Shown here piece by piece: positions 23,178-54,479 of a stretch of 64,000 nucleotides of DNA. The stretch covers positions 1 to 64,000 of the forward strand of contig JAMXDE010000015.1 in the NCBI GenBank assembly GCA_026770025.1, read 5' to 3'. Position numbers and translations under genes: made by a program. Position 1 is the stretch's first letter. Every line of letters starts with the position of its first letter. The notes under the pieces are model-generated. The model ran no database searches, had not been told where the DNA came from, and saw only the letters and a program-made list of their open reading frames with translations. Source of the DNA: Craspedostauros australis (lineage: Eukaryota > Bacillariophyta > Bacillariophyceae > Mastogloiales > Achnanthaceae).

Positions 23178-26100
23178 CGTTTCGAAACGTTTATGATTGA
23201 AATCCAACGTTTCCACCACCACCAACACTAGCCAACATCACCATCATCGACATGACCACCATCTACACTCAAGACCATCGCGAGTAATGATCCCCTGTGT
23301 GAAGAGAGAGGAGAGCAAGCCGCTCTGCAGCATGATGCTCCTTGCCAATGGATGCCAAGATCGGCATGGTAACCCCCACACGAACGACGATGTCAAGACG
23401 ATGATGATGATCGAATCGAGCACCACCGCGAGTCCACCAGCAGAGTGGAGACCGCAGCTGAGGCAAGTACAGACACTACATGTATTGCTGGAAGCAAGGA
23501 GGCGCTCGGAACACGCGCATTGGAAGAACTGTCCATGGTCATGGGACCATGAAGTCAAGGAAGGCATGGAGACCTTCACGGCTGTGTTGGAGTACGAGAG
23601 CAAGCTGTACGCAAGAAGAGATTCGGACACAGCAGACCACGCTCTCGGATGCATCAGATTCAGCAGACTGCGCCATGAGGGCGAGATAGCTGAAGGAGCT
23701 CAACGAGATGCAATTGAGGAAGCAATGAGAGCTTCCTACCTACCCTGCAAGAATGGAGCTGCCTCATCAGCATTCGGTCAATATGGAAGCCGAGATGGAC
23801 GAGGAGCAACACGGATCGCTGATGCCGAACGTCTGTGCGCATGGCGCGCGACGCAATCGAGCACGAGCATGCAGGCAGGGATGATAAGGTGAAGAGAGAT
23901 CAAGATCTACGCAGGAATGGGCATGGAGCAGCAACGGAAAGCATCGAGATGATCACATGGCATTGATTATCATCGTGTGATACAGGCTCGAGTGCTGGCT
24001 GCGATTCCTACTGTGAGATGATCGAGAAGGTAAGAGTGCAATCTGCCAGCCATGAATTGGCGACAACAACGAGAACAGCAACACAGGAAGTGTGTGCTTC
24101 GACGAGAAGGGAAAGCGCTGGAACAAGCTGGACGGGAGGTCCTTCTGCGCTTCGATCCCAGGCTTAATACGAATGACGAGGAACAAGAGGTGTCCTCGCC
24201 ATCGGAGAAGACGATGATTTCAGACACCCGCAGAGCTATGAGCCTCATCTACGACCGCCACCGTATCAAACACGGTTATAAGTGCGCACGAGGCAACGGC
24301 AGTGAGAGAGTGAGATAGATAGATGACACTGACAGCGGATCGGTCGGTTCAGGAGCAGACGTCCTAACCGCGATGCCCACAACAGCAAGATGAAGGAAGC
24401 TTGGTCGGCCAAGGTCGCGACAGACGGGATGGACGGGATGGATGACATCGCTCTCATCACAAACGACGAGCCGATGCCCATGCCCATCAACGAAAATGTG
24501 GTCGGCATCAAAAATATGACCAACACGAAATTCGTGGCCATCACCGAAATCGCGAACAACGACCAAAAATGTGACCATCAGAAACCACACGATGATGCGC
24601 GACGACAACGCGATCACGAACAACATGGCACTCGTAACAATCAACAATGATGGGGTTTCCGACTTCGACAGCGGAACACCAGCCAATAACTACGAGTGGA
24701 CCAGGGAGGAGATAGCCGAGTACACTCCAGGAGTGTATGGCTACTACGGGTCTACGAACGATCACGATGGAGTTGATCAACAGACAACCCTTTTCATCCG
24801 AGAATGAAGAGGAAGATGGCAACGCCAACTACAACCAAGGCGAAACGAGTGATGAGGAGCACAAAGGACTGCATATGGATGCAGGTTCGATCTGCCTCTT
24901 GGTTCGATACTCGTTGAGCAGCATGACGTCTGCCACCGATGTGCGCGTCGAGCTTTCGATGATCTGCTACGATGCGATCGACGAATTCGAGAGTCGACTG
25001 CGCAGATGAGTGCACCCACGCGGGTTGCACTACATGATGCATGAGATTGGCGTGCGGAGCGCACTCGACGTGGCTCGCAACGTGTACGCAATCAACGACA
25101 TGCTAGAGAACAGCAACTTCACTTCTGATCCAACAGACGCTGATTGGATACAGGAGTCGCATGCAAGCGGTATGGACCGCACGAGTGAACCTGGTGATGA
25201 CCAGGATCCTACTCACGATGAACGTGACATGGATGGATACGTCATGTGAGCAATTCGAGAGTATTGAGAATGCCAGCAGGTCAGTACTGACAGACCTGGG
25301 AGATGACGACTCTACTTCAGGGAAGAGTACCCCAGATAGAAGAGTGACTTGGGAGCGACGTGCGGATACCATCCGAAGCATGGAGACCGACGATGCTGAT
25401 CAGAGCAGAAGAGCCGGAGACGATACAGATACAGAAGACGCTGCTCGAGGGCAAGATGACTTGCTCCCTACCCAAGGGGAAAATGAATCGTACGATGACG
25501 ACGACGATGAATCCGGAAGGGACGATGAGACGGGACGAGACGATTTGGCCGAGAACGCACCAAATACGGTCCCAATCGCAGAACCTGTCGTGCACATGCC
25601 GAGGATGCTGAGTGCTCTCAAGGGATACTACGATATGCCCATTCCGAAGGAGGAGCGAGAACTTGGATCAAGTGAAGAATCAGAATCAGAGAATGATGAG
25701 GGGTATGAGACCACTCGAGAGATGACTACCACACTACCGGCGACAGGAGGACCCAACTTTCACACAGACGGGTCAACATTCAACAGAGATATCGCAGGCA
25801 TGACGATTGACACCACTCATGAGAAGATGAGCCTGGGTGACTTCATCGCCGCGAACCAAGCATTGAACTACATACAGAACGAAGAGGGATCCGAGCAACC
25901 AAATGTCGCAATGATGCTGGATCCAACCACAATTGACGAATGAAGGGGTCATGTGGATCCCGAGAAGAGCAGTGAATGGCGGGAGGCCATGATGGTACGG
26001 TTCAGTGATATAGCCATAGCATGAGCATGGCAGATGATCAAGAAGAACCGGATGCCGAATGATCGGCGAGATACTACGAGCACAGATATGAGATCGGTGT

Positions 26101-28161
26101 GCGATGACAATGAGATCGATGAGAGAGAGACACGAATCTGGAAAGGATACAGCTATGAGAGCGCGAGCCATGAACGGCGGATTCCAGATACAGTGAGCCA
26201 AGACGCATCGATATACGATCAATGAGAGAGACGCGGGCATGTCGGATGAAGAATCGAATGACAGAGCCGGAAGGGAGGAACCTCAGATGAATGGAGGATG
26301 AATGGCAGGATGCCACCAACCACTCCCATGACGAAGAAGCTGCAGCATGATGAATCGATGCTATCCAGAAGAGGATGAAGGTGATCGACAGCGTGGTTGC
26401 AAGGCAACACGACGACAGAGCTGGCAGCTGACCACAATATACCAATACCCAACGAGGGTGACAAACGAAGCATCAGAATCAGGAGACGACGATGGCTACG
26501 CAACTGCACAGGAGACGATGACCGCTCCAGTGGCAACAGACGGACCCAACTTCGAACAAGGCGGGTCAATCATCAACAAGGACGTCGCAGGCATGAGGAT
26601 CGATGCTATCCAATGAAGGATGAGAGTGATCGACTTCATCGCTGCAAGTCAGGATGTTGAGAGCGAACGCGACGGCGAGAGAGATTCGTGCACATCAACA
26701 CTGGAATGATGCCGAATATATATGCGCCTGAGGAATGCCAGGATCATGTGGATCCTGACGAGCAGAAGGGACGAAGTACGAGTGACTTGGAGATAAGCCG
26801 CTGAAGGCACGGACCTCGAGTACTATCCCACGAGACCAGTGGCAAGGATGCCACGGATGACACGCGGCTTGGCACCGCACAACAATGCGCCAGAACACCA
26901 CTCCAACTCAGATTCAAGCGGTGGAGGTGGTGAGTCAGCTGAGGAAGCAGAGAAGACCCCAGCAACTGTGAGAGAGGAAATGAGACGTCCGAGCATGCAT
27001 ACACGGCTATGATGCTGGACCCCACCACATCCGAAGAATGCTGGGACCATGCGGATCCAGCGAAACGAAGCGAAAGAAATGGCAGGAGGCCATCAACAAG
27101 GAGTTCTACGACATGGTCAGACGAGGAGTCTGGCAGAAGATCAAGAAGAGCGAGATGCCGAGGGATCGGCGGTGTGTGAAGACGAAGTGGGTCTTCAAGG
27201 AGAAGAGATCTACATGCAGTGTCCCAAGAGAAAGGAACACGAACCGGATGAATGCGTGCTGCTGAAGAAGACCATCTACGGGTCGGTGCAGAGCGCGAGG
27301 CAATGAAACGAGGAGCTTGCGAACACATTGACCAAGCTTGGCTCCTGGCAGAGCAAGGCGGATCCATGTCTGCTAATCCGGAATCGGGAAGGGAGCCTCG
27401 TCCTCATCAGGACGTGCGCCAACGATCGCCTGTGCATCGGAAGCACACGTGAGCTGAGGCAATCGGTGAAGAACATCAAGAGAGAGCGATTCGGAATCAA
27501 GATCGAGAATGGTCTCGAGGACTACTTGAATTGCCGCATCGGATCCAATGAGAGCAAGACCAACTGCTGGGTGAACCAGCCACTCATCATTCAACAGGAA
27601 CAACAAAGCTTCAAAGATACGGAACACCTGGCATACATGGCCGAGGGATCCAGAGGAACGACGAAGCACCCAAGGTCGATAAGGATCGACACAGCAGATA
27701 CCACAGCGGTGTGGGTATGCTGCTATACCTGGTGAAGCATTCGAGACCAGACGTCGCGAATGCCATCCGAGAACTGATGAAGGTGTTGGATGGGCCAACG
27801 ACCACAGCATTGAGAGATGCTGAGAGTGACGAAGCTCGTGTCGGACACGAGTATATGGATTGAGGATGGAGAGACCTGTGGATGTGATGGTTGACAACGT
27901 GAGAGCGATCTTCATCGCTATCAACCCATCGACATCAGCCAGGACGAGACACATCGACGAGCGCAATCACTTCATCAGAGAGCTGATTGCGAACAAGGAA
28001 GCGAGGGCTCGATTCGTGAAGTCAGAGGACAACATCTCTGACGGGTTCACGAAGAATACAAGAAAGGAGATCTACGATCGGCACAAGGGGAGCATCATTC
28101 AGCCCAGGTCAGCATTGGACTGAACAAGGTGGATGATATGGTCGGATCGGCAATGGAAGGG

Positions 28162-29079
28162 TGTCAGGAATCGGGTGTTATGAAACACGTGATTGCCGCA
28201 CCTCCCAGAAGTATTTGGGGTCAAGTGTTGTGAAACACTAAATTACCGCACCTCCCGCTGTGACATTATGAGCATCAAAATGTGAGGTACATGATGAGGC
28301 GAAGGCTGTCCTGAGACGAATGGCGAATGACAAGTGTGGATCGGATGATGACGACTGTGAAGGATAATGCAATCATCCAATGCACGATTGCATGTCACAC
28401 GGGGCTGCAATGATGCATTCGTGACCATCATCAGGTACAAGCGAATACAGCCCTCATGTAATGACGGACAAAGAACCGAGGAGTCGGAATATCCCATTAC
28501 CACGAAGTACAAAAAGGACCGTGAGAGAACTCTCCGGTGATAATGGATGAAGCTGGTAACGAACCGGCGAAAGGAATGTGATAAGGGATGGCTGCCTCAA
28601 CACGAGAAATCGTGTGAGAATGTGATCAGGGATGGATGCCTCAACACGAGAAATCGTGTGAGAAATCGTGAGAACAACGGTTCAACCGTGAGAACAGTTG
28701 TGTCTCTTGTGTTTTGTGAAAACACGAAGATGATGATCCGACTGAGTGAAACGAGTCGGTAACGCCTGTGAATCAATGATGTCTATGCTGACAAAACTAT
28801 TGGTAGAGGGCAGGAGATGGAATATCTGAGATGCATGATGAGATGCACCAATACTGCAAGATGAGATGTACATGGAGTACATGCTGCATGACATGATGAA
28901 GCAGGAGGACAGCACTGCATGAGCAAGGGCAAGACTGTGTGCTACTGTGGATTATGTATGCTTTGGCAAATGGAATTGAAAGTGATGAAGATGTTGTACT
29001 CACAGTTCCAACAATGCAATAACATGAATAGGTAACCAGATACTACTACTAGAGACTGGGGTACCCCGGATTTCCAACA
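28162..29079 (+). repeat. Downstream LTR of copia C (918 bp)
   Basis: It is identical to 22260-23177 apart from one base by eye. The purine-rich GCAATGGAAGGG directly before it is the likely plus-strand priming tract; the same tract precedes the LTR of copia E. Confidence 0.92.
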
Positions 29080-30353: not shown

Positions 30354-33300
30354 ATCCGAACCAAAGTACCAGGACCTGTGGGAAACCATCCGACGGCACA
30401 AGGTGGACATTGCACTCTTGACAGAGGTGGGCATCAACTGGAGCAAGGTGCCACGACACTGGCATCTGCATGAAACGGCACAGAAGAACATCCCTCAGTC
30501 GCGCACGGTTACATTGCACAACAAATTCAACTCCCCACGAGTGCGCCAGTGGGGAGGCACAGCCATCCTCATGCATGGCAACACCAGAGGCCGCGTGCTA
30601 TCTTCCTCTGTCGACACACACGGTTGGGGAAGGTGGGTCAGCGTGCTTCTCCAGGGCAAGGGCGGCATCAAGATTCGGGTGGTGTCGACGTACGTGGCCA
30701 ACAAGTCGGTCAAGACTCCAGGTATGGTGTACAACCAGCTGGCAGCCAACGCGGCGGCAGACGGCATCGACACGGACCCCATCAGCCTGCACATACAGGA
30801 ACTGCAACAGCAAGTGCACCTGTGGCATCAAGCAGGGGAAACCGTAATACTTGGTGGCGACATCAACATGGATGTGAGGTCATCAAGAATGGGTTCCATG
30901 CTCGCGGAGGAAGGGCTAGGAGAGGCAATGTCCACCCAACACCCGACACCGACGGCCACTCACATCCGCAATCGTGCTTGCACCCAAATCGACGGGATCT
31001 GGACCTCACGCGAGGCAACACCCTCACAATCAGGTGCCACCCCATTCGGAAGTTGGGACCATCGCATGGTGTGGGCCGACTTTCTTGCATCCCAACTCTT
31101 GGGTCAGCGCAGAACGTCGACCCAACCATTCCGGGGCCGCAGGCTTCAGCTCCAAAGCCCTGCAACCGTCAACCGCTATCTTGAAGAATATGCCAAAGCA
31201 GCAAAGCGACTCCGCCTGCTGGAGAGGGCCATGGCCTTGGAGCAATCCATCACAGCAGGACCACTCACCAAGAGCCAGCAAGCGGACATCGAAAGCATTG
31301 ATGAGGATCGCACCGAAGCTATGCTATGGGCCGAAAAGGGCTGCAGGAAAGTCCGCATGGGTAGGGTGCTGTACTTGCCGCTGGTTGCCAGAGTCCAGAA
31401 GGCTCACAAATTCTGGACGGAGTCCATCCGGCGCAGGCAAGGCCACCAGGTGAAAGGCTCTACCATCGACAGGCTGAAGAAGCAGTCCCAGCTCGGCCAT
31501 GTTCGCACGAAAGGCATGAGCATCGCTGCCATGACAACAGAACGCAACCGAGCGTGGAAGCAGCTGAAGAAAGAAAAGCGCATGGCTGCCGAGCACCGAG
31601 CGGACTTCTTACAATCCAATGCGGAGTACGTGAGTGACAGTGGGGGCGACCAGACGAAGCACAGGCGGCAGTTGGCCGAGCGCGAGGAGACAAGGGCGAA
31701 GTTCCGTCGCATCCGACATGCGCTGTCAGGGTCGGCACTTGACTCGCAAGTCGCCATGGTGATCCATGACGGTCCAGGCGGTGGCGGCCAGGTTCTCACG
31801 GAGCCTGAGGAAGTGGCCCGAGCGTGCTGCGAGACAAACATCGCCAAAAATCAGGCTGCATGGTCCTCTGAATTGTGTACAGGACGTCTCAGCCGCCGTG
31901 TGGGGAAATATGGAACATCCCTGGCTGCCGATGCAATCATCCAAGGCCTTGTTCCCACGCAAATTCAGAGGGGAACAGCGGAGCTGCTCCATGCGCTACG
32001 CCAGCCGTCGCAAACCACACCATGGTCCCAGCAAGACACGGCGATCACCACCGAAGAGCACGTGGAAGGATGGCGCAAGATCAAGGAGCGTACGTCGTCA
32101 GGTCCATCGGGCATTCATTTTGGCTGCTGGAAAGCAAATTCCAGGGACCCTCAGCTTGCGGCGATCGATGCCATCATGCGGTCTATTCCGTAACACACGG
32201 GCTACAGTCTGCTCAGATGGCAGCAGTGCACCGACGTCCAGCTTCGGAAGCAACCGGGCAACCTCGCCGTCACCAAGACGTGGACAATCGGTCTCATGGA
32301 AAGCGACTTCAACATGAACACCAGGCAATTGGGCTGCACAGCCCGCCGACACGCAGAGAGCAACGCCACTATCGCGGACGAGCAATACGGCAGCAGGCAG
32401 GCGCACACGGCCCAAGAGGTGCTTGTAAACATGTGCCTGACGTACGACATCATGAGGCTTACGGGGCGAGACGCAGCAGTGTGCTCCAACGACGCCAAAG
32501 GCTGTTACGACCGCATATCGCATCCGGCATTCGGGATGGCTCTCCGACGCCAAGGGGCACCTCGTCAGCCCATCGAAAGTGTTCTATGCACGTTCCAGCA
32601 CATTCGGCACAAAATCAGCATGTGGTCAGGCGTCTCAGCAGCCAGCTACTCCGGATCTCTCCTCCCCCGGCCAATCCAAGGACTCGTCCAGGGCCTGGGA
32701 GTGGCCCCCACAGGTTGGCTGCTGATCAGCTCGGCCCTCATCGACTGAATGCACGCCAAAGGGTTTGGGTTCCAATACGGCGAATCGAACAGACGTCCAC
32801 AACGGTTGGTCTGCTTCGCGTACGTGGATGACACCAATTTGGTTCACACGTTGCAATCCTCCGACGTGCCGTCCCAGTCCAGAGAGTTCCAGGCAGTGGT
32901 ATCTCAATGGGAAGCAATGCTGACTGCTTCCGGTGGATGTCTTGCTCCGGAAAAGAGCTTCTGGCAGCTGATCAAATTCAAGTGGGGCAACTGCAGATGG
33001 CAATATGACAAAAGTTGGAGGCTGCACGACATCCATATGCAAGGAGCAAGTGGTGAAGCCCAGGTGTTGCAGCATATGCCAGTGCACCAGGCCAGCAAAT
33101 ACCTGGGCATGATGATGCGGCGAGATGGAGGCCAACAGGAGCATGCGACGTATCTCCAAGGCAAAGCGGAGGCATGGGCGGCACACATCCGGACGTCACG
33201 CATCTCCAAACAGGACACTGAAGTTGCCCTCAAGGCAGTCCTATGGCCTGCGCTGGAGTACTCGTTGGCAGCCACCACTCTCACACACAGTCAGCGCGAA

Positions 33301-35857
33301 AGCATCATGTGGCCAGCACTCATGGTGGCTCTCCCCCACATGGGCATCGTTCGCACCATGGCGAGGCCTTATGTCCACGGCCCTCGTCAACTCAACGGGC
33401 CGGTTATCCCTCACTTGTACACCGTACAATGCAAAGCCCATCTTGCAATGATCTGGAGGCACTTCGGCGCAGCGACAACCACAGGTAAACTGCTCCGGGC
33501 GTCGCTCCTCCAACTCCAGCTATGGTCAGGCCTTTCCGAACAGCTTCAGCAGCAACAGCATCGGTGGCAGCGCTGGACCTCCGGTTAATGGTGGGCAAGC
33601 ACGTTCCAAATGATGACGAACTACAGATTGGTGCTGCACCACAGCTCGCCGTCGCTCGCAGCCCAGCGGGAGCAGGACGTGGCCATCATGGTAGCTTTCC
33701 TGGAACGGGGAGCCGGCGACGAGGACCTGCGCAAGGCGAACGCGGTGCGGGTGCATCTCCAGGCGTTCTGGATGTCCGACATATGTGACGCTGCCGGCGT
33801 CGGCATACACCCTGCAGTGACCCAGCACCGCCAGGCCCAACAGCTCCAAACCACCTACAACTGGCCCAAGGCGGTGGCACCTTCGCGTCAAGCATGGGCT
33901 GCCTGGGATAGCCTGGTCCGGACGGTCATTGTGGATGATAGGCTGGGAATGGTGCTGCGCAAGCCGCTCGGGCTATGGAAGAGTCGTCAAAGGTCTGCGA
34001 CATGGCAGGACTGCGACGGAGATGTGTGGAGACAGCGCCCCGGTGCGGCTCCCCAGCGCCTCGGCGGCCTGGAGTTTCGGTGCTGGCGCATTCGGGGCCA
34101 GTCGGTGCTGGATGTCAGCGAGCATCGCGGAACGAAGTCCGTTCACTCCATGGGAGCAGTGGTTCCGCAAGAAGACGCCCGCACCCTGCAGGCACACATT
34201 GCGCAGCTCGGCGGCCTGGCCACCAGCATGTTGCAGCAAGTGAGCATCCACGGATCGGTCCATGAGATCGCCGCCTCCATCGTACAGGCGACGTGCGTGG
34301 CGTGCTGCGATGCGTCGGCTAAGGACCAACGAGGGACCACGGCTGTCATCATCCAAGACAGGCTGGTGCAGCCCATGGCAGGCATCATCGTCAGGTCCGA
34401 GGTGCCAGAAGGCTCACGTGTGATGGATTCCAACCGTGCCGAAACGGCAGGAGTGCTACTCACTATGCAGTTCCTGGACGCGTTCGCTAGGTGGTCAGGA
34501 GTTCGCGGATCCGCCGTCATCGCATGTGACAGCATGCAGGCCGTCCGAGCCAGTGAGCCCGTAGAGCTCCTTCAAGCGGAAGACAACCACTACAACCTCC
34601 GAAGTGAGATCCAGCGGCTATTGCGGCGGCCAGCGGTCAGCTATGAGGTCCGGCATGTCAAAGGCCACGCAGATTCGAGGCTAGGGCACAGCATCTCCGA
34701 CTGGGAAACGATGAATGTGGTGGCGGACCACGAAGCAGGCGCACAGTGGCAGGCGTTAGAGGAAGCCGGGACGTGGGGTGCAGTGCACGGCAATCCAATG
34801 TCAGCTGGATGGGCAGTGCGTGCCAGCGACCACTTCTTGTCGGAGGCCAGCTACCCCGCCATATCCAATGTAACGGCAGCGGCAAACCTGCGAGACAAGT
34901 GGCGGCACCGCTGGGGTTCAGCTGATCGGTGCCCGGTGGAATGGGTCCCGCTCCAGAAAGTGATGAGTCGCTGGAGTGGAGGCAAGCACCGCACCATTCT
35001 CAAGCTTGCATCCGGCAATGCGGCAACGGGTCGCAACATGTGCCGCCGATAGCAGACAGACAGACAGGAACGCCCGCCCCCGCTGTGGGAGAGTCAAGAC
35101 GAACCAGCATGTGATGCATTGCCCGAGCAAGGACAGCCAAGACCTGTGGGAGGCGTGCATACAGCGCATTCGGAAGGTCATCCAGCCGCCCACGGTACGA
35201 CGTGATGCTGCCCAGCTCCTGGTCAAGGCTTTGAGAGTGCTGAGACAAGGCGGTGCTCCTCCCCAAGGCATCAGGCGCTCTTCAACACAATCCATCGAGC
35301 GTGCACAGCACGGAGTAGGGTGGGACGGGCTCTTGTGGGGCGCATGGTCGATGGAATGGATCCAGCACAGTCCAAACCCGGAGCCATCCCGCCGCCGTGC
35401 ACGACAGGTGTTCTGGCAGGCGGAAGTCACACATGAGTTGTGGCACATGGCTCTCCAGCAGTGGTCAAGCCGCAATCGCACGCTGCACGAGGCGGGTGAG
35501 CAAAGCGCAATGTCCCAGCGCATGGTATCGTATTGCCATGCCCTGCTGGAGCTGCCCTCACAGTCCGTTCCCCGGCACCTTCGACAGTTGGCCAGGCACC
35601 TTCCGGAATCCGAGCCACGGAAGGCAGAGTGGCTGCTGGCCATGCTGCACGGCATGTCTCACATCCAAGCCACAGTTCCCCTGGTGCAGATGCAATGGCT
35701 GAGGCGCCGAGCGGCCAGCCGAGACGACACAGGTCTCCAGACGGTGGCACACGACCGTCCCCACGCCTCATCAAGCCGTACACCACTGCCGGCTGCTGCA
35801 CTGCCGATCAGTCCCTCTCATCCGCAGCCAAGGCATCTCCAACACGCACATACATGA
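30354..35857 (+). pseudogene. LINE ORF2: endonuclease-RT-RNase H, disrupted
   Basis: One frame (that of position 30403) runs from the LTR edge to 35052 but contains in-frame stops at 32191-32193 (TAA), 32746-32748 (TGA) and 33586-33588 (TAA). Homologous-looking protein then continues in the next frame to 35857, so a frameshift lies near 35000-35090. Endonuclease signs are DIALLTEVG near 30400, VILGGDINMDV near 30850 and SWDHRMVW near 31060. RT signs are TSSGPSGIHFG near 32095, SNDAKGCYDRI near 32490, IQGLVQGLGVAPTGW near 32680 and FAYVDDTNLVH near 32815. RNase H signs are CCDASAKDQRG near 34303, DSNRAETAGVLL near 34426, IACDSMQAV near 34519 and VRHVKGHAD near 34650. A Cys/His segment RCGRVKTNQHVMHC follows near 35080-35120. 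It is not functional as it stands. Confidence 0.85.
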
Positions 35858-38058: not shown

Positions 38059-40977
38059 CTATGCTTCCCCACTGCAAAACACCTGGGTCTCCGTCATCAG
38101 TTGAATGTGTGGAATCAGTTTCTTGAAATCTGGATGAGTGAGCAGATTTTGTTCATATCCAACTGCCATTCTCATTGCTGCATCCTTCAACACCACGCAG
38201 TTGTGCTGATCAGCGAATATCAACACATCTATCATGGTGTCCTCTGTGAGATGCTTGCAGGCCAACTCCGCTTCAAGAACAAGCTTGAGTCGCCAGAAGC
38301 CGAACTTGTTGGCCACAAGGATCAGCTGTTGCAGATCGTCCTGTCCATTGAGGGTGGGAGTTGGTTGGTTTGCGTCACCGGTATTGGCATTGTCTTCATG
38401 AGTGCTGTTGTCGAAGGATATCTCACCTGTGTAGATGCATTGGAGGACGTGTTGGACGTGTTTTGGTTGAAGGTTGGGAAGAGGGATGGTCGTTTGGATG
38501 GGTTCAGTTCCATCTTGAGCACCATCGTGAGTGCATTGATGTTGGATTCCTTTGTTGATCAATGTCTGAATGGATGGAACAGTGACAACGAGGACTCCGG
38601 AGTTTGCCTTGATTGATTGTTGTTCGTCCCCATGTCCGCACAGGAAGGTAGTGTCTGCGATGGCCTTGGCACGAACAGCGGTGCAACGATCTTGGTCGAT
38701 GCTGATCTTGAAGTGTTGTTTCAGCTGCCGTTTCAGTTGTTCGCTCTCTCGTTGAGTTTTCGAGACCATGCCCTGCATTGCTTCCTTCTGCTGTTTCAAC
38801 TGCCGTTTCAGTTGTTCGTTCTCCTGGTCCTTTTGTTTCTTCTCTTGCCCCTTCCGTTCCAACTGCTGTTTCAGCTGTTCGTTCTCCCGTCGAGTTGTCG
38901 AGACCATGCCCTGCATTGCTTCCTTCTGCTGTTTTGGCTGTTGTTTTTACTGCCATTTCAGTTGTCCATTCTCTCGTTGACTTTTCGAGACCATGTCCTG
39001 CATTGCTTCCTTCTCATGTTTCGACTGCCATTTCAGTCGCTTGTTCTCCTGGTTCTTCTTGTTCTTCTCTTGCCCCTCCCATTCCAACTTTCGTTTCAGT
39101 TGTCCGCTCTCTCGTTGACTTTTCAAGAGCAAACGCCGAATTTCTTCCGTCTGCTGTCCCAACTCCAGCTTCAGTTGTTCGATCTCTCGCTGACTCTTCG
39201 AGAGCATGCCCTGCATTGCTTCCTTCTGCTGTTTCAACTGCCATTTCAGTTGCTTGTTCTCCTGCTCCTTCTTGTTCTTCTCTTGTCCCTCCCGTTCCAA
39301 CTGCCGTTTCAGTTGTTCGTTCTCTCGTTGACTCTTCGAGAGCATGCCCTGCATTTCTTCCTTCTGCTGTTTTAACTGCTGTTTCAGTTGCTTGTTCTCC
39401 TGGTCCTTCTCTTGTCCCTCCCGTTCCAACTGCTGTTTCAGTTGTTTGCTCTCTCCTTGACTTTTTGAGAGCATGTGCTGCATTTCTTCCTTCTGCTGTC
39501 TCAACTCCAGCTTCAGTTGTTCGTTCTCTCGCTGACTTTTTGAGAGCATGCCCTGCATTTCTTCCTTCTGTTGTGCCAACTGCCGCTTCAATTGCTCGCC
39601 CTCCTGCTTGTTCTCTTTCAACTGCTGCCGCAGTTGCGGGTTGCGGAGACTGAGACCAGTGATGATCGATCTCACCACATTGATTTGATCGTTTGTGCTG
39701 ATCACATCGAGAGGGGTTTTGTTGTCTTTGTTTTGAATGTCGATATCGGCATTGGCTGATGCGATGAGGTACTTGATGCACCCCAGCTGGTTGTTCATGC
39801 ATGCTTGATGAAGGGGAGTGGTACCGAACAAGTTTTGGAGGTTGACGTTGACCCCGCGTGATTCGATGAGGTACTTCACACACTCCAGCTGGCCTTTGTA
39901 GCATGCCGCATGAAGGGGAGTGGAACCATTGTTGTTTTTGCAGTTGGCGTCGGCCCCGCGTGATTCGATGAGGTACTTCATACACTCCAGATGGCCGTTG
40001 CAGCATGCCCCATGAAGGGGAGTGTTACCATCGTTGTCTTTGCAGTTGATGTTGGCCCTGCCTGATTCGATGAGGTACTTCATACACTCCAGATGATTGT
40101 TTATGCATGCCACATGAAGGGGAGTGAGACCATCTTTGTCTTTGCAGTTGATGTTGGCCCAGTCTGATTCGATGAGGTACTTCACACATTCCAGCTTGCT
40201 GGTAAGGCATGCCACATGAAGGGGAGTGAAGCCATTGTTGTTTTTGCAGTTGGTGTCAGCCCCACGTGATTCGATGAGGTACTTCACACACTCCAGGTGG
40301 CCTTTGCCGCATGCATTATGAAGGGGAGTGAGACCATCGTTGCCGTTGCAGTTGATGTCAGCCCCGCGTGATTCGATGAGGTACTTCACACATTCCAGCT
40401 GGCCATCTCGGCATGCGTAATGAAGGGGAGTGTCACCATTGTTGTCTTTGCAGGTGATGTCAGCCTCGTGTGATTCAATGAGGTACTTCACACATTCCAG
40501 CTGGCCGGCAACGCATGCCACATGAAGGGGAGTGAGACCATATTTGTCTTTGCAGTTGATGTTGGCCCCGCGTGATTCGATGAGGTACTTCACACACTCC
40601 AGATGGTTGCGTATGCATGCCAGATGAAGGGGAGTGAGACCATCTTTGTCTTTGCAGTTGATGTCAGCCCCACGTGATTCGATGAGGTACTTCACACATT
40701 CCAGCTGGCCCTTGAGGCATGCCTGATGAAGGGGAGTGAGACCAGTGTTGTTTTTGCAGTTGGTGTCAGCCCTCAATGATTCGATGAGGAACTTCACACA
40801 TTCCAGCTGGCCGTTTGTGCATGCCACATGGAGGCAAGTCCATCCCTTGCTGCCTGTAACCTTGTTGACATCAACTCCTTCATTCTGCGTCTGGTTCTGC
40901 GTCTTCCATTCCTGCAACACCGACAAGTCACCTGCCTGGGCAGCAGCAAAGAGATGTTCGTTCGTAACATTCGGCAT
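38059..40977 (-). pseudogene. Ankyrin-repeat/coiled-coil/BTB protein gene, split by an in-frame TAA
   Basis: This is the only host-like gene in the window, on the minus strand. I place the start at the ATG at 40977 (MPNVTNEHLFAAAQAGDLSVLQEW), preceded by AAA and typical of an ankyrin cap, although the frame is open to 41280. Twelve ankyrin units of 34 residues (102 bp), such as GLTPLHLACIRNHLECVKYL, fill residues about 41-440. A Gln/Lys/Glu coiled coil with repeating QLKQQKEEMQGMLSKSQREN units follows (about 445-750). A TAA at 38947-38949 ends the first frame after 676 residues. The same frame then continues to 38059 with more coiled coil and a BTB/POZ-like domain (ADTTFLCGHG, then LQPKHVQHVLQCIYTGEISF, then ANKFGFWRLKLVLEAELACKHL). 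BTB domains commonly recruit Cullin-3 or dimerise; ankyrins bind partner proteins. Options are a recent pseudogene, readthrough, a sequencing error or two separate genes. Confidence 0.75.
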
Positions 40978-41280
40978 TTTGAGAGGATGGTCGATGATTA
41001 CTGGACGATTGACGTTGGGCGATTGACGTTGGATTGGCTGTCGAGGAAGAGTGTAGTTCGAGTTACCTATGGCGGAGATATCGATGGTGGTGTCTTCAAT
41101 AGCTTGTATTCGTATGGGTATCATACACTGTGTGGTAACTCGATGTCTGTTGTTGATGTGCTCGGGTATGGGGTTGAGTGGTGTGCTTTGTTGTCTTGTT
41201 GTCTTGGAGGTTGCGGTATTGTTGGGATATCGCACCGTATTTCGGACATTATGCCGTATTGTCCGATTTTGAATACACAT

Positions 41281-45390: not shown

Positions 45391-45933
45391 AGTTAGTATT
45401 CCGTGTCTTTTGCACGTTGTCAGGAGGATGGTTTGTCCTTCAACCGGTTTTGACGCCGTTTGATGTTGAGAACAAAGCTGTATCAGACGATGATGTAACT
45501 GTAGTAGACTTGGAAGTAAGCTGTGAAGATTGTTTCTGATTGCTTGTTTTATGTGTTAAGCTTACTATTGATAGGACGATCGAGTAAAAAGGTGGGGTTC
45601 GTGCTGTCGTACTTCAGCCGTTCTTTGTTGCGCAGCAGCATGCCGTGGTGATCCTGCACACATACAGTCTTCCAGTATCATCACTCGTAGAGCAGCAGCT
45701 GATCCATTCACATGGATATGCTTCAAGATGGGTGCTTGTTCGGCAGGGTGACGAGCTGGACAGGTGGCAGGGGTGCATGAGCTGGAGGGCGAGCAACGCA
45801 TGGATTGCAGTTCAACTACACATCGTGTGTGCGGTAGCCTTTCACCACAGTATCGGTCTTGGGTACCGAATACCGTGTACGCGGAATGGACAGTCAAGTC
45901 CCGAGTCAGTCCCAGAGCTAGTCTGTCCCAACT
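45391..45933 (-). repeat. Downstream LTR of copia F (543 bp)
   Basis: On the plus strand it begins AGTTAGTATTCCG and ends CTGTCCCAACT. It is repeated at 53937-54479. The left flank ATGGA is the target duplication. Confidence 0.9.
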
Positions 45934-47483
45934 CTCCCTCTCGGCGTAGTGCGAAGCATGTCCCCGGTGTAAAAACCTCCATCGTTCGATCAACAGTTCA
46001 CAATTTGTGGTGCCATCACCATCCCATGAGCATCCGTCGCAGGTGCTCGAATGCATCCCGCGCAAGGCCCTTGGTGAAGATGTCAGCGACCTGATGTGGT
46101 GTTGGTACGTGTAGGATTCGAATGAAGCCTTCCTTGACCCAGTGCCAGAAGAAGTGCCATTTGGTGAGAAAGTGTTTGGTTCGCGCCGTGACCTTGTGGT
46201 TTGTTGCCAGTGAGATGCACGCCTCGTTGTCTTCAAAAACGGTGCATTGGATGTTGGTTTGCAGCGGCTGGTTGAGGCTCGTTGATGCGTTCACTTCGTT
46301 GATGAGTTGTTGCATGGGGATGAGGGCGCGCATGGCAAGAGACAGGGTGGCGTATTCCGACTCCATTGTCGATAAGGCGATCTCCGTCTGCAGCTTCGAT
46401 TTCCACACGAGCGGGCAGCCACCGAGGATGATGACGTAGCCGGTACGTGAGCGTACTGCGTTGGGAGAATCGTCGGACTCGCGCTTGTACAGACCAGCAA
46501 AATCGGCATCGACATAGCATTCCAGGTTGAGTTGGCCCGTTGGTCGTACGATGGTGCCCATGGTGTTGGTGTGGCGGAGGTATCGCACGATCATCTTGAT
46601 GGCCTTTGCGTGCGGTTGGCGGGGATCGTTGCTGAATCGGGCCACTTGAGAGACGGCGAAGGCCAAGTCGGGGCGTGTGTTCGTAGTCAAGTAGAGCAGC
46701 ATGCCGACGATGGAGCGGTAGTTCCATGCTTCCTTCATTGGCGGTTGGTCGGTTGAGGCGCCGAGGGCGAGTTGTGTTGTTGGTGTCACATTTGGTTTGC
46801 AGTGCTGCATACCGGTGGCCTCGATGATCTTGTTGATTAACCCGGTCTGCTTGAGGTGGATGGTGTTGTTTTTGGGGTCTCGGTGCAGTGATATTCCCAG
46901 GAACTCCGTGAACGTGCCCTCTCGTGTGAGATCAAATCCGCGTTTGCGCATGGACTCGATGAATGCGTCTGCCTCTTCTTCCGTACGCGAAGCGATGCCG
47001 GCGTCGTCCACGTAGAGGACGATCATCATGCCGTCGCGCATGAACAGGCACTTCTCTTGGTCACACGCGTGAAACCCTTCCGCAAGGAGGGCGCGCACAA
47101 GATGCTGATACCATAGCTTGGGAGCTATAGTGAGACCATAAAGGCTTTTAATCAGCTTGAGGCACGTGTCAGGTCCATTCGTTGATCGGAAACCGCGAGG
47201 GAGGTGTAGGTAGACAGGTCGGTGGATGTCGGCTTGGACGAACGCGTTCGAAAAATCGATCGATGTCGTGACCCAGCGGAGCAAAATGGAAAGGATGAGA
47301 AAGACGCGGACGGACGACCATGCGACGACCGGAGCGTAGGTTTCTTCCGTTTCGGTCATCATATTGCCTCTGCAGCACCATCGGCCTTTATACTTCTTGA
47401 CCGTGCCGTCGGGCATTCGCTTGCGTCGGAATACCCATGTGCCCGGGAAGATGCGATCAGTGGTGGAGGATTTCGGCACCTCA

Positions 47484-47557
47484 TGTCAAATGCATCGATA
47501 ACCACTATGCTACTATGTGTACACATAGTAGCATAGTGGTTATCGATGCATTTGACA
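47484..47557. repeat. 74-bp perfect palindrome, left end of mini-element
   Basis: The sequence from 47484 to 47519 is the exact reverse complement of 47522-47557, with TA in the centre. An identical copy lies at 47771-47844. Confidence 0.92.
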
Positions 47558-47770
47558 AAAGTAAGAAACCAACCAAGTGTCTCTGGTTGGATGAATACTT
47601 CGGGAAGGACTGTGTACGTAGAGGGACGGGCCTGACTGCCTACGGGAGATGCCGGCTCCATCCTTGCCCTAATGCACAACATAGTAGCCTGGGCCCAAGC
47701 GGTATCCAAGCAATTTCCGGTCGTAGCTCGAGTGTGGACTCGAACCCAAAGACACTTGGTTTCTTACTTT

Positions 47771-47844
47771 TGTCAAATGCATCGATAACCACTATGCTAC
47801 TATGTGTACACATAGTAGCATAGTGGTTATCGATGCATTTGACA
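47771..47844. repeat. 74-bp perfect palindrome, right end of mini-element
   Basis: It is identical to 47484-47557. Its minus strand contains the tRNA-like A box TAGCATAGTGG followed by TTATCGATGCATTTGACAA. Confidence 0.92.
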
Positions 47845-50560
47845 CCTCAATCCACGTTCCTTTGTTGGTGAGATCGTGGATTTCCTTGTGTGCGGCGGCC
47901 ATCCATTCATTCTTGTTGTCGTCATTCATGGCCTCGCTGAAAGATAGAGTGTCGGGGTCAGCTTTCGACGCCTTGTAGCTGAAGTGCCGGTCCGTGATGT
48001 CGAGATCGCCGCCGCTGGTGAAGAAGCTGAGCAGGTCATATGTGATGAGGGCACTGTGGTTGTCGTTGTCGTCGTGCTCGACCGCTGCTGCCATTGCGTA
48101 GTGTTCGTCGGTTTCATCGTCATGCTGCGGTGGATGGTGGGCGTAGTGAGTTGATGCCGAAGCGTGCTGTTCGGCCGGTTCGAATTCGCTCGGTGGGGCC
48201 ATGATCATCGGTGGTACCTCTGGCGCGACTCCAAGTTGGATGTGTAAGTGGAGTATTCCGATCTCAAATCGCTCGTCATGCGTGATGAGATGCCACGCGA
48301 AGCCTGCTCGCCGCATGAAGTCCTGTACCCGTTCATCTTCGTCCGGTGATCGTAGACCGTTCTCCATGGCCGCAATGGCTCGCTCCAGAGTGTACCGCTG
48401 GCCTTGTGTTCTTGACGTGAACCCGAAGTACGAGACGGGGAGGTGATACTCACCTGTTTCGAGCATTTCGTCGATGGCGTCAACGAATCTGCGAATAGCG
48501 TAGTAGATGCACTGGCTCCTCGCGGCTTCCGTCGGGAATCGGAATTGCACCACATGATCAAAGTAGTGGCGGATGTGCCGAGTGATGTTGACGTGGTGTG
48601 GCCACAGGTGACCGATGTCGATGGGGTCCATTGTGTGGCCGGGGGATGAGTTGTCGTCCTCTGAGGACGAGTCGGACTGGTTGCTCATCATGAGGATGTG
48701 GTGTTCATGCGGAGTTGTTGTTCCATCGGCCGCTGCCTCCTCTTGTTCCCTGCGCATCTCGGCCCAGATCTCGAGCTGTCTTGCACGTAGCATCCGTTCC
48801 ATCTCGAGGTCGCCCTGCGCCCAATGCCGTTCGTCCTTTCGTAGCTCTTCGGTATCGATGGTTCTCAAATTTCGGAGCATGGATTCCGCGTCGCGGACCA
48901 GGACCTTGGCTTTTTGTGTTACCTGGTCGTCAGGGTGTTCTGTGAACTCCATTAGCGACTGGTGGCACTCCTGTAGGACCTTCTTCATGCTCTGCACCGC
49001 TTGGGTCCTGCTGGAGTTGCCTGTGTGTTGAGTTGTCACGTTGGCGCTAGCTTCGATGGGTAGCGTGTCTTCATCTGCCCACACAACTTTGCCCCCTAAC
49101 TTGTTGTAGGTGAGCCGTTCGACGGTTTTGCGTTCTCGTGGCTCTCGCTTGTTGATACGCTCCGAACGGCGAAGAGGAGGCGGCCTGGTTTGTTTGGTCT
49201 TGTCTCTTTTCGTTGGCGCGTGGATGGGTTCACGAGGTGGCGAAGCTGGAGGGGAATCACTTGTGATCGGCATGACACCACTTTCGTCGTCGTTTGTCGC
49301 TCCCTCTGTTGGTGGCAACAGGTTTGGCGAAGTTGTGACGACACGTTCTTTCGGCTCCTCACCTCCCTCTGTTGGTGGCACTGGTGGTGTGCGTGTGTGA
49401 TCTTCAACAGTATCCGCTGGTTGGGAGGTTGGTTGAGGTGGTTGCACTTGATCGACCGGTGTTGTGTCGTTGTTCATTTCCGGTTCCGACGGCTGCTCCA
49501 AAATGTGAGCTGGTGAATCTGTGTTGGTCAGAGTTCGCGTAGGTGCTTGTTGCGCGCCTGATGATGGCGGCGACATCGGCACATCGTTGTCATTGATGGA
49601 ATGAAATCGCCGGTGATCGTTTGCGTCTTCACGTTCGATATCTCTTTCTTCCATGGCGATGATGTCTTCGTCGTCGAAAGGAATCTGGTAGGTTGTATCG
49701 CCGAACATGTGGGTCCACTCGCTGGTGTTGTAGTCGGGAAGGTCGCTTGGGTTGGTTGCGATGGTTGCGAACCAATCATCAAAAACGACGTGAAATTGCG
49801 GGGTGATCGATCCTGTCCGTGGTGACAAGACCAGGGGGACTGTTGATGCGTGACGGGTGGAGAGGCCCATGTTGACGTACCGTTCTCCGCGTGGTTCCCA
49901 CCGTGGGATCTTGCGGCCATCGCCAAGAGCTTTGTTCAACACGTACACTGGGCTGCCCCACACATGAAGGTTGTGGAGTTGCTTCAGCGGAATGCGCGTA
50001 CGCGACAGGATGTCCATTGGTGTCAATCCGGTGGCTGCGTTGGGGACCCGATTGTGAATGTACGCTGCATGCACGACCGCCATGGGCCAATGCTGTGCGT
50101 CAAACATCGTCGGCCAGTGAATGCTCTGATGCATCATCATTGTGCGTGCCATGGAGATGATGGTACGGATGCTCCGCTCGGCCACTCCGTTGTGATGATG
50201 GGCACCGACTCCGGCGAAGCGATGCACTTGGTGGAAGCGCTCGAGGTGTTTGGTGTAGTCTGGAGATGTGAAGGTGGTGGCATTGTCCGACAGGTAGGAG
50301 CGCACCGGTACCCCCACATCACGACACATGGATTCGAATCGCGTCTTGGCTTCAAGTGTTGCGTGGGTTGTGAGGGATGCAACAGGTTCCACGTGAATGT
50401 ACCCTGATGCATGATCCACAAACATCGCTCCGCCCTTGTACATCTCCGAGGAGTCGGATTTTCCCCTTCCAGTGAATAGATGACCCAGCGTGTGTCCCAC
50501 GAAGTGGTCCACGGAAACCTGTTGGCCAGGGAAGAGATGATCAGTTTTAATCACACCCTG

Positions 50561-53500
50561 TCAGTCCTGTATTGCGTGCTGTGTTGTGCCTGGCGTAGGT
50601 CTGCGGTGTTGTTTGCCGAATTGGCATGCCGCACATAGCGGGCACTCCTGCACACGGGCGGCTGCTGTTTGCATTTTTCGTGATGCTTCGGTGTTGACGA
50701 GTGCACCTGATCGAAGTAGGAATTGCACGCGTCGGAAGGAGAGGTGCCCGAGTCGGTAGTGCCACTTGAGGAGTTCCTTTTGTGGTTGGCTCAGATTTTG
50801 GTTGTGTTGTGCCACGGAAGTGATGGTTGTTGTGAGCGCGGCTGGCACGTCGGAGAGGTCGCCTGTGCGGTAGGCACGTGATGTGGGAAGACGGTTTGCT
50901 TTCCAGTTGTGGGCGATGATAGATCCTCGTTCTTTGTTTCCTGGGATACCACTCAGCTTGATGTTGGTAGCTTCCACGATGATGTTCTCGCCCTTATATT
51001 CATGGAGGAGGCTTGTAGCGCTGATGAGTTTGACGGATGATCCTGGTACGTAGAAGGCCGGGAGACGCAAGGATCGTGGCTTGCCGAGGGTGTCGAGGAT
51101 CGACCACTCCACTGTGCCCTTCGTCTTGACCTTAGTGCGACGCAGGAACCCATTGAGGAAGGTCGGTGTTGTTGGTGCAGAGGTGGGGCCCACAAAATCG
51201 TTCATGTCGTTGGCAACACAGATGGAGGCACCGGTGTCCCACACTACATCGAAGGAGCCACCGCTTGGGATGACCTCTTCTACCTTGTGAGGCGCGGCGA
51301 AGGCATATTTACAACCGAGGATGGCCGTGAGGGTGTAATAGGCGTTGGCAAGTACGTTGGCGCTTGCGTGTTCACTTGGTCGTGCTTCGTTGCGTTGGTT
51401 GGGTGGACGAGCGGGACTGGGCGTATGCTTCGCGCGACAGGAGTTTTGGCTTGTACCTCTGCATCGGCGAACCCGTCGGGTTTTGTTTCGGTGGTTCGCA
51501 CGTGGAGCGTCGAATTTTGCGATGGTGGTGCGTTTGTCGTGGAGGAAGTGTTTGAAGTCGTCGTTGCCAAACACAGAGTCGTACAGACTGTTTGCTGGCA
51601 TGGCTGGATGATGGTAGAAGCGTTGGTGAGTTTTAAAACGCTTTCGTTGTTTCTTCTTCCAGACGTTGGTTGCATGGTTTGTTCGGGTCGAGGTGGGTTG
51701 GTAATGCCGTGGAACGCTGGTGTGGAGGGCGAATAGCACAATGGCTGTTGTCATCCACATCATGGTGCTCATCACGTACCAGCCGCACTCGATGCCGAGC
51801 ACGGCGATTTGCACTGAGCAAAGGGCGAGAAAGGATCCGGTCAAGATGTTGATGGTGTCGAAGGAGGTGAAGGCATCCCACACGGCTGTCCACCAGGCAT
51901 GTTCGCTCACGTGCGCTTCCGCGGACAGGCAGGTCCAGGCAGCGTGGTCGATTTCGAGCTGTGGGCTTTTGGGCTTTCGCTGGAAGTCGTCGATGTGGCC
52001 AGCTGTGCCGTGGGAGATGCGCCAGTGGCGGCACTTCGCACACCAATGAAAGGTCTTGTCGTTCATGAGCTTCTGTTGTGGTTCACCCTTCCTTGGGGGC
52101 GTTGTGATCCAGGGGTCCTTCTTTGGTTGTGCTCTCTTCGTGGTTGACTTGTTCTTGGCACCCTGTCGCTTGCCTCCTTTGTGCTGTTCCAGAAGACGGG
52201 CTTCCTTCGTAGTTGAGGTGTGGTTTGCGTGCATGCGAGGGGTGTTTCGATCACGAGAGTGCCTGTTGGCGTGCCAGGAGTTTCCCTGCAGCTCGTCGAG
52301 ATAGGCATCCTCAGCTACGCTGCAGATGTCCATCCAGGTGAGGTCCTCACGAAGCAGGTGAGGCTCCGCTCGCTCGTAGGTCTTGAGGGACTTGTCTTCG
52401 ATCAGTCGTCTGAGTCGATCGCTGATGTCGAGGATTCGATGACGGTATCGTTCTCCTGACGTGGTTCTTCCTCCTGCCATGAAGAAGTTGTCTGTCATGG
52501 TACGGAGAAGCGAGATTTCGAACTGATCGGCGTCTTGAAGTTCCTTGCACATGATGCGAAGAGCGTCAGCCATGGCTTGGATGTTCTCTCCTTGGAACTT
52601 CTGGGGCGTGGTCTTCCTGACCTTCTCTTGGAGCCGTGCGTACTTGTCCAGCGAGCTCGAGGTGATACTCTTGATGAGTTCGGTGAAGATCACGTTGAAG
52701 TCTTGTTGATACTTCGGCTTGATGCGGTTCATCAGGCGGTCTTCGAGGTCGGGGTCAAGGCTGTCGCGTAGGAATCGAGCGGCCGATGCGTTGTTCTGCT
52801 TGTCGTATCGATCCCACAAGTGGCGATAGAGGTCATGGTGGTCAGTGGCTTGGCTGATGGTGGTGCTGCCTGGGGCGTCAAGGACACACACCATCTCATT
52901 GGGGTGTTCGTTGCTCCTCATGTAGGTCATCGAGATGAGACCTGCGGTGGACATGTGGTCCTTGAGGAGGCGCAGCATGCGCTGGCGGTTATCCCTGATT
53001 CGGAAGCGAGGGCGAATGCCTTTCTCTCGCTCCGGTTGGTTCTTGGAGTCCGAGCCGTTGTGGAGGACGCGCTGCTGTTGGGAGCTGTCGTAGGACGTGG
53101 CTGCGTCTTCCGCAAGGCCCGTCCATTCGACGTTCGGTTTTCCTCCCGTCCATGGTACCCAGTGGCGACCAGCCTTGGTGAGGCCACCCATGATGGGCTT
53201 CTCTGGCTTGTCTTCGCTTTCGTACGCCACGTACGTGGTCTCGGGTCCGATGGGGTCCTCGTCGGCGGCAAAAGGGAAGTCACCCCCGGTGGATCCGGTT
53301 GGGTTGCCTACGTTCCCTCCGCGTCTTGCGGTTCCCTCGGTTTCACCAAGGTTCGGTTGGTCGTTGGCGTCCCCATCGTTGTCTTGGGCGGTTTCGCCCT
53401 CTCCTTGCCCGGCTGCCGTTTGGTCTCTTTGCTGAGCAGGGATGGGTGCAGCTCCTCGCGAGACTCGGGATTCGTTGAGGTCTCGAAGGGCTTGAGCGGC

Positions 53501-53581
53501 TTGTTGGTTGAGCCGCTCCACGAAAGCCTCCAGCCTGCGTTCTTCGCTGCTGATGCTCGTGTCTTCTCCTTGGACGCTCAT
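50561..53581 (-). CDS. Copia F gag-protease ORF with membrane-like segments
   Basis: This open frame of about 1006 residues begins at ATG 53581. The N-terminal half is hydrophilic Gag (QTFHD-like helical segments, then YDKQNNASAARFLRDSLD near 52760). A Cys/His cluster WCAKCRHWRISHGTAGH lies near 52000-52050. Two strongly hydrophobic stretches follow at about residues 575-597 (INILTGSFLALCSVQIAVLG) and 599-622 (WYVMSTMMWMTTAIVLFAL), and a weaker one near 747-766. The protease motif FDVVWDTGASICVAND is near residue 778. A GAG-pre-integrase segment with HYRLGHLSFRR and CPLCAACQFGKQH ends the frame. Membrane-like runs are unusual in a copia Gag. Confidence 0.8.
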   Translation of the reverse strand: MSVQGEDTSISSEERRLEAFVERLNQQAAQALRDLNESRVSRGAAPIPAQQRDQTAAGQGEGETAQDNDGDANDQPNLGETEGTARRGGNVGNPTGSTGGDFPFAADEDPIGPETTYVAYESEDKPEKPIMGGLTKAGRHWVPWTGGKPNVEWTGLAEDAATSYDSSQQQRVLHNGSDSKNQPEREKGIRPRFRIRDNRQRMLRLLKDHMSTAGLISMTYMRSNEHPNEMVCVLDAPGSTTISQATDHHDLYRHLWDRYDKQNNASAARFLRDSLDPDLEDRLMNRIKPKYQQDFNVIFTELIKSITSSSLDKYARLQEKVRKTTPQKFQGENIQAMADALRIMCKELQDADQFEISLLRTMTDNFFMAGGRTTSGERYRHRILDISDRLRRLIEDKSLKTYERAEPHLLREDLTWMDICSVAEDAYLDELQGNSWHANRHSRDRNTPRMHANHTSTTKEARLLEQHKGGKRQGAKNKSTTKRAQPKKDPWITTPPRKGEPQQKLMNDKTFHWCAKCRHWRISHGTAGHIDDFQRKPKSPQLEIDHAAWTCLSAEAHVSEHAWWTAVWDAFTSFDTINILTGSFLALCSVQIAVLGIECGWYVMSTMMWMTTAIVLFALHTSVPRHYQPTSTRTNHATNVWKKKQRKRFKTHQRFYHHPAMPANSLYDSVFGNDDFKHFLHDKRTTIAKFDAPRANHRNKTRRVRRCRGTSQNSCRAKHTPSPARPPNQRNEARPSEHASANVLANAYYTLTAILGCKYAFAAPHKVEEVIPSGGSFDVVWDTGASICVANDMNDFVGPTSAPTTPTFLNGFLRRTKVKTKGTVEWSILDTLGKPRSLRLPAFYVPGSSVKLISATSLLHEYKGENIIVEATNIKLSGIPGNKERGSIIAHNWKANRLPTSRAYRTGDLSDVPAALTTTITSVAQHNQNLSQPQKELLKWHYRLGHLSFRRVQFLLRSGALVNTEASRKMQTAAARVQECPLCAACQFGKQHRRPTPGTTQHAIQD

Positions 53582-53936
53582 GGTGAGGCGGCGGAGGTGT
53601 CGAAGTCGTTGGGCTTCGCTTGGTGTCGACGGTTGTCTCAGGCCTTGCTGCTCTTCCTCCCTTCGATGGCGAAGGTGTGCACGGAGGTCTTGGCAGGGGT
53701 GCTCTGGAGACGGACACCTGGTTTTGCAGGTGTTGGTTGGGTGCGCTTGCTTAGCAAGGGCTTGATTTGATGAGTTGCCTTCGGGCTAACTTCATAGATT
53801 GCTAGTCAGGATCGTTGGTCCTGAGAGGCTTGGAGCCTTTGGGCTCAGTGTCGTTGGACACAGCGGTCTGCGCGCTTGAGGAAGTCTCTTTGAGAGTGAG
53901 GAAGGTGGATGTAAGCGAGAACCACTCGCAGCTACC

Positions 53937-54479
53937 AGTTAGTATTCCGTGTCTTTTGCACGTTGTCAGGAGGATGGTTTGTCCTTCAACCGGTTTTGAC
54001 GCCGTTTGATGTTGAGAACAAAGCTGTATCAGACGATGATGTAACTGTAGTAGACTTGGAAGTAAGCTGTGAAGATTGTTTCTGATTGCTTGTTTTATGT
54101 GTTAAGCTTACTATTGATAGGACGATCGAGTAAAAAGGTGGGGTTCGTGCTGTCGTACTTCAGCCGTTCTTTGTTGCGCAGCAGCATGCCGTGGTGATCC
54201 TGCACACATACAGTCTTCCAGTATCATCACTCGTAGAGCAGCAGCTGATCCATTCACATGGATATGCTTCAAGATGGGTGCTTGTTCGGCAGGGTGACGA
54301 GCTGGACAGGTGGCAGGGGTGCATGAGCTGGAGGGCGAGCAACGCATGGATTGCAGTTCAACTACGCATCGTGTGTGCGGTAGCCTTTCATCACAGTATC
54401 GGTCTTGGGTACCGAATACCGTGTACGCGGAATGGACAGTCAAGTCCCGAGTCAGTCCCGGAGCTAGTCTGTCCCAACT
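53937..54479 (-). repeat. Upstream LTR of copia F (543 bp)
   Basis: It is the same length as 45391-45933 and differs at about three bases by eye (near 54366, 54391 and 54460). The right flank ATGGA is the target duplication. Confidence 0.9.

Follow-up and report, generated by a model that had tools for sequence, protein, structure and literature searches.

TRIMs driven by Pol III promoters have been grouped only recently, and the closest described kind, in the accessible text of the source, is Helenus (TRIMp3; Kojima 2024), which comprises TRIMs with tRNA-like LTRs and 5-bp target duplications in fungal and plant families (PMC10886601). Helenus elements are 311 to 1263 bp long, occur also as solo LTRs with duplications and are served by a helper in trans, while Cassandra and Ajax are described there as TRIMs whose Pol III promoter is derived from 5S rRNA (PMC10886601). 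The Helenus and Ajax families are held, in the same text, to use tRNA primers in their replication and to have a primer-binding site (PBS) and a polypurine tract (PPT) (PMC10886601). The accessible parts of two further papers deal with 2-LTR circles of retroviruses, in which integrase cleaves the palindromic LTR-LTR junction (PMC1180852, PMC1905944). Here we describe a small family of palindrome-ended elements, and we regard it as an evenly balanced proposition that they are non-autonomous TRIM-like retroelements with a tRNA-like Pol III promoter, palindromic LTR-like ends and an integrase supplied in trans.

The element under study occupies positions 47484-47844 of the window, that is, of the whole 64-kb stretch of DNA analysed, and is 361 bp long, with a left (47484-47557) and a right (47771-47844) terminal repeat of 74 bp around a 213-bp interior (47558-47770). 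The two repeats are identical to each other as direct repeats (74 nt, 100%) and each is also a perfect palindrome of two 37-nt arms with zero spacer, so that, as a sequence-only reading of this DNA had pointed out, the ends are direct and inverted repeats at once. The same reading had described a second inverted pair further in, and this was found as well: the inverted arms extend to 89 nt at 100% identity (47484-47572 and 47756-47844) by way of an inner repeat, AAAGTAAGAAACCAA, with its left arm at 47558-47572 on the plus strand and its right arm at 47756-47770 on the minus strand, and there is an additional inner pair of 24 nt (83%). The ends read TG..CA and are flanked on both sides by CCTCA (47479-47483 and 47845-47849), again in agreement with the earlier reading. 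Its claim that coding capacity is lacking also stands, as the longest ORF wholly inside this copy has 57 aa (47640-47813, minus strand) and longer ones enter only from the flanks. The interior holds, at 47679-47688, the 10-mer ACATAGTAGC, which also adjoins the axes of the palindromes and is possibly a trace of template switching.

Genome pattern scans, covering one assembly of 74.8 Mb in 90 contigs, placed the family at nine places on seven contigs (designated here by C numbers, C13 being the copy in the window). There are three full elements (C13, 361 bp; C41, 365 bp; C42, 285 bp), two solo 74-bp palindromes (on C21 and C26) and four solo relatives of 35-37 bp, of which C7 and C34 carry two each. 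A scan with the core pattern, allowing at most two mismatches, gave 17 matches, all within the nine family places, and its backward-pattern control gave none on the forward and one on the reverse strand. The two C34 loci are alike beyond the element (2730 identities, 52 mismatches and 506 gap columns in loci of 3035 bases) and were therefore counted once. Exact 5-bp target duplications flank six of the eight independent loci (CCTCA, CCTTT, CGAAG, GATCC, ATAAC and AGCAC); at 1/1024 per locus, the chance of at least six in eight is 2.4e-17, and among duplication lengths from 2 to 12, only 5 fits the six exact loci. The flanks of C42 (GGTGG/GGTAG) agree at four of five bases, and those of C34 (AAGAC/GCTGC) at one of five, i.e. 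there is no duplication. Exact duplications are present at four of the six solo places (C21, C26, C7a and C7b), C34a and C34b being the two without.

The site of insertion is also found empty. A copia paralogue at C13:268783-269377 (L093) carries the same site with a single CCTCA, and its flanks match those of the occupied site with one mismatch in the left 100 bases and none in the right 100; given such near-identical flanks around an empty site, the insertion must be recent. The family is mobile and the insertion at 47484-47844 is recent, and the expectation of a mobile, multi-copy element was borne out by the count of nine places. Perfect palindromes are a known form of assembly artefact, and palindromes of this kind are indeed present; an origin in a hairpin read, the danger named in the sequence-only reading, is nevertheless reduced to a practically nil probability by nine places on seven contigs, by variants and duplications that differ between these independent insertions, and by the empty site.

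The element lies inside a copia-type retrotransposon (45391-54479, minus strand), whose LTRs (45391-45933 and 53937-54479) differ at 3 of 543 positions and whose own target duplication is ATGGA. Among at least 120 protein matches listed for one copia protein of the window, three carry an organism name: two, with 56% and 53% identity, belong to Fragilaria crotonensis and the third to a metagenome-assembled bacterium. As F. crotonensis is a diatom and gives the closest of these named matches, the host is probably a diatom. The copia LTRs have AGTTAG and CCCAACT as their terminal sequences in place of TG..CA, and the suggestion that host copia machinery moves the element is unproven: the copia ends are of the type AGTT..AACT, and the pattern scans showed no longer element with the ends of the family. 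Pattern scans of the assembly found no longer element with the same ends, or with the end plus the inner start, although a partner sharing only some 6 end bases would escape them. The scan for the repeat end plus inner start returned the three full copies (six sites) and three sites at three mismatches, the backward control also giving three. A narrower end pattern, with a gap range too short for the 74-bp type, matched 14 times forward and 12 times reverse (control 0), in known 37-bp copies and in unrelated non-palindromic repeats. TGTCAA..TTGACA alone matched 252 times forward versus 67 for the backward control, and among the matches listed (C1-C4) most are non-palindromic by eye. Exact family patterns gave no match in viral contigs.

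Elsewhere in the window, 22260-29079 holds an LTR element with 918-bp LTRs (one difference), ends TGTCAGG..CCAACA and an apparent 6-bp duplication (TGGATC), and 38947-41280 encodes an ankyrin-repeat protein, with repeated DNA over 38714-40852. The ORFs at 30403-35857 possibly belong to a LINE-type element, the one at 30403-32193 having a weak endonuclease/exonuclease Pfam match (20.7 bits, under the 24.5 cut-off). A 25-bp perfect palindrome, TGTCAAACGAAA-G-TTTCGTTTGACA, has 22 genomic copies (among them those at L060 1484-1542 and in L065-L072) and is unrelated to the element; as a candidate sister family this palindrome, TGTCAAACGAAAGTTTCGTTTGACA, was rejected, the nine copies read of the 22 sitting in one longer conserved inverted repeat.

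Boxes A and B of a Pol III promoter had been predicted on the minus strand, and they were confirmed there. Box A, TAGCATAGTGG, lies at 47789-47799 inside the right palindrome, which is the 5' repeat in the Pol III sense, and begins 52 nt ahead of box B, GGGTTCGAGTCC, at 47736-47747 in the interior; the box B pattern GGTTCRANYCC occurs just once in the window, both strands counted. A second box-A-like TAGCATAGTGG is found in the far (3') palindrome, the left one, at 47502-47512 on the same strand (minus-strand element position 333). In C41 boxes A and B stand on one strand, 56 nt apart, and C42 has a box B variant, GGGTTCAAGTCC, and no full box A match. The tRNA similarity of the heads of C13, C41 and C42 scores 36, 33 and 29 on the promoter strand versus 25, 22 and 18 on the other, and first-order Markov resamples reached the head score in 0, 0 and 3 of 300 cases, respectively. 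The resampled maxima were 32, 32 and 30, which places the score of C41 just above the range and that of C42 within it; C13 thus has clear support for a tRNA-like promoter, C41 has support by a narrow margin, and for C42 the support is weaker. On the promoter strand, TTTT occurs once in each of the three full copies, at the junction between the interior and the 3' repeat (47557-47560 in the window, minus strand), where it is the predicted Pol III stop, and because the inner ends are inverted repeats the other strand has a mirror-image copy (47768-47771, plus strand).

For comparison we used 20 host tRNA hits (16 distinct), taken from 63 scored hits among 1610 first-look candidates. Among these 20 the best-aligning one is tRNA-Ile(AAT), its anticodon read by eye, rather than the tRNA-Val(GAC) head proposed at first, and the TTGACAA stretch, which had been taken for an anticodon loop, falls off the loop in this alignment. 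Nor are the terminal repeats on their own tRNA halves, as had been thought, since the tRNA-like sequence spans both palindrome and interior, with box A in the former and box B in the latter. Extrapolation over six unaligned nt puts nucleotide 1 of the tRNA at 47806, at a distance of 2 nt from the axis of the palindrome, and in the 37-bp type it falls on element base 1 (placed by eye). With ARAGORN in its bacterial setting, neither the window nor seven family loci gave a tRNA, and Rfam listed no tRNA match at E<=10 for 47300-48000; the element is not a tRNA gene. The 13 Rfam matches listed on the element, mostly to miRNA families on the palindromes, are below gathering scores and were rejected as reflecting the perfect hairpins. 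A tRNA-like head with boxes A and B would also be expected of a tRNA-derived SINE that a LINE mobilises by target-primed reverse transcription, and the ORF at 30403-32193 may encode a LINE-like endonuclease; however, duplications of a fixed 5 bp, TG..CA ends, terminal repeats, and the lack of a truncated copy among the three places that hold the interior make this origin very improbable.

The terminal repeats of each full element are both of one type, 74/74 in C13 and C41 and 37/37 in C42, and the interiors are 90-97% alike despite the different repeat types, so that the two repeats of an element seem to come from a single source. The ends of C42 are 37-bp near-palindromes on both sides (15-bp stem and 7-nt loop, by eye), yet its interior is shared with C13 (197 identities, 14 mismatches and 2 gap columns), and both ends must thus have changed type together. 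In the four elements of the 74-bp type, arm positions 12-14 read TCG in C13, TAA in C41 and C26, and CAG in C21, and these positions agree between both arms in all six palindromes, the sole arm mismatch being at position 2 in C26. Since both arms share a variant though the elements differ, the terminal repeats seem to be rebuilt from one template.

Repeat orientation is undefined in the 74-bp type, which is palindromic, and the inner ends are inverted. The two 37-mers of C42, on the other hand, differ at three positions when aligned as direct repeats versus six as inverted ones, which points to a repeat logic that is LTR-like rather than TIR-like, on this one decayed element. The better fit as direct repeats argues against a MITE-like DNA transposon with TGT..ACA ends and a DDE transposase, in which the 74- and 37-bp solos would be minimal copies with two ends and a captured tRNA or SINE fragment would account for the Pol III boxes, and so does the presence of one repeat type in each of the three full copies. 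The combination of TG..CA ends and 5-bp duplications is typical of LTR integrases, and this pattern likewise speaks against a MITE-like origin, as does the failure of the pattern scans of the assembly to find a longer or autonomous relative with these ends, save one sharing only about 6 end bases, which they would miss. On the side of such a transposon are the 89-nt perfect inverted ends, the solos with duplications of their own, which it explains with no recombination, and the lack of a recognised PBS or PPT; we consider it unlikely, if still a serious competitor.

The retroelement reading has to account for priming. The right arm of the inner inverted repeat (47756-47770) directly follows the 5' repeat when read in the Pol III sense, at the usual position of a PBS, and the first 24 interior bases have no match longer than 7 nt to the 20 host tRNAs (20 of the 63 scored hits compared). 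No PPT precedes the far repeat in either orientation, the stretch there being the pyrimidine-rich GGTTTCTTACTTT (GGCTTCTTACTTT on one side of C41). These two results weigh against a canonical Helenus element, in which PBS and PPT would have gone unrecognised, ordinary tRNA-primed replication and solo LTRs would account for the copies, and the palindromic LTR would be an accident kept by hairpin-mediated conversion. A canonical Helenus would readily give the tRNA-like promoter, the 5-bp duplications, the small size and the solo repeats with duplications, as these are described for the family; however, box B lies here in the interior, outside the LTR, and the words palindrom, hairpin, inverted and diatom do not occur in the main text of the Helenus paper (PMC10886601). 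We judge this explanation improbable.

The interior is predicted to fold as RNA with a z-score of -5.4, none of 200 shuffles being as good. The predicted RNA folds into a panhandle, which 0 of 200 shuffles equalled in each fold computed. Pairing is uninterrupted from the junction of interior and 3' repeat for 16, 11 and 16 nt in the three full copies, one repeat base counted, and the predicted 3' end of the RNA (..CTTACTTTT) is complementary to the stretch just past the half-repeat (AAAAGTAAG..). This suggests a possible replication cycle. With box A (5' palindrome) and box B (interior) as its promoter, Pol III would start near the palindrome axis and stop at TTTT, giving an RNA of roughly 250 nt (predicted at 47557-47807 on the minus strand, ~251 nt) that consists of one 37-nt half-repeat and the interior. 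The 3' end of this RNA could prime a reverse transcriptase supplied in trans, by which the half-repeat at the RNA 5' end would be copied, and mirror copies joined at the axis, via a circle or a dimer, would turn one half into full palindromes. This would account for both the perfect symmetry and the arms changing together. An LTR-type integrase, acting on TGTCAA..TTGACA ends, would then insert the product with a 5-bp duplication, and solo palindromes may stem from recombination between repeats, or a single repeat may integrate directly.

We offer, tentatively and as a proposal with a greater chance of being wrong than right, that every round of replication makes the repeats anew: the first ~37 nt of a tRNA-like Pol III transcript, which would start at the axis, would be copied by fold-back, with the 3' end of the RNA as primer at the PBS position, and all four arms would derive from this one half-repeat before insertion by an LTR integrase. 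That the element is transcribed, primes itself and is served by a helper enzyme is what we infer. Against the retroelement model, simple self-priming would predict inverted repeats, while C42 fits direct ones better, which would call for a further step. It also counts against the model that the other strand has TTTT at the mirror-image position, that the promoter match in C42 is weak and that C34 lacks a duplication. If the model is true, a much simpler RNA is enough to supply an LTR-type integrase, and the spread of 37-74-bp hairpins as minimal mobile units is explained; it predicts a transcript with its 5' end at the palindrome centre.

Among known systems, Tf1 of fission yeast is a self-primed LTR retrotransposon, in which the RNA 5' end is the primer and pairs at the PBS position. 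The element described here would similarly carry its primer within its own RNA, at the 3' end instead of the 5' end. MITEs and fold-back DNA transposons have inverted ends, no coding capacity and small size; they differ from this family, in which the C42 repeats look direct, the promoter is tRNA-like and both repeats change together. In retroviral 2-LTR circles, the palindrome is the junction of two ends, and each whole repeat is palindromic here; the cutting of a circular palindrome by integrase, in the accessible parts of the papers cited above, is nevertheless what the model would require at its circle step, and we regard it as a lead. Word searches of open-licence literature, over titles and the starts of abstracts, showed among the matches listed no mobile element with such palindromic LTRs and no diatom Pol III TRIM. 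Cassandra and Ajax share with the element the LTR-borne Pol III promoter of a TRIM, theirs being 5S rRNA-derived and the one here tRNA-like, and their description in the accessible text includes no palindromic LTR (PMC10886601).

The comparison with Helenus, again as far as its accessible description goes, is the closest one. Helenus and the present family have in common two terminal repeats, small size (361, 365 and 285 bp here), no coding capacity (judged here by the 57-aa longest ORF of the window copy), a tRNA-like Pol III promoter, 5-bp duplications (here exact at six of eight loci, with one at 4/5 and one at 1/5), and solo repeats with duplications (here C21, C26, C7a and C7b). As for Helenus, a helper in trans is proposed for the present family. 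The sequence-only reading had suggested a new class of tRNA-derived mobile element; mobility and the tRNA-like promoter stand, whereas the claim to a new class goes too far, given Helenus in 2024 (PMC10886601). As described, Helenus has boxes A and B within the LTR, and here half of this arrangement is seen, with box A in the repeat and box B in the interior. Helenus also has a PBS beside the 5' LTR, where the element shows no match above 7 nt to the 20 host tRNAs, and a PPT before the 3' LTR, which the element lacks. Features of this family that go beyond the Helenus description are the 74-bp perfect palindromes or 37-bp near-palindromes, the inverted inner ends, the self-complementary primer position and the probable diatom host. 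Because two defining features, LTR-borne boxes A and B and the PPT, differ in this way, membership in Helenus is not established; the closest known kind would be Helenus (TRIMp3) all the same, and the element probably works like a TRIMp3 variant.
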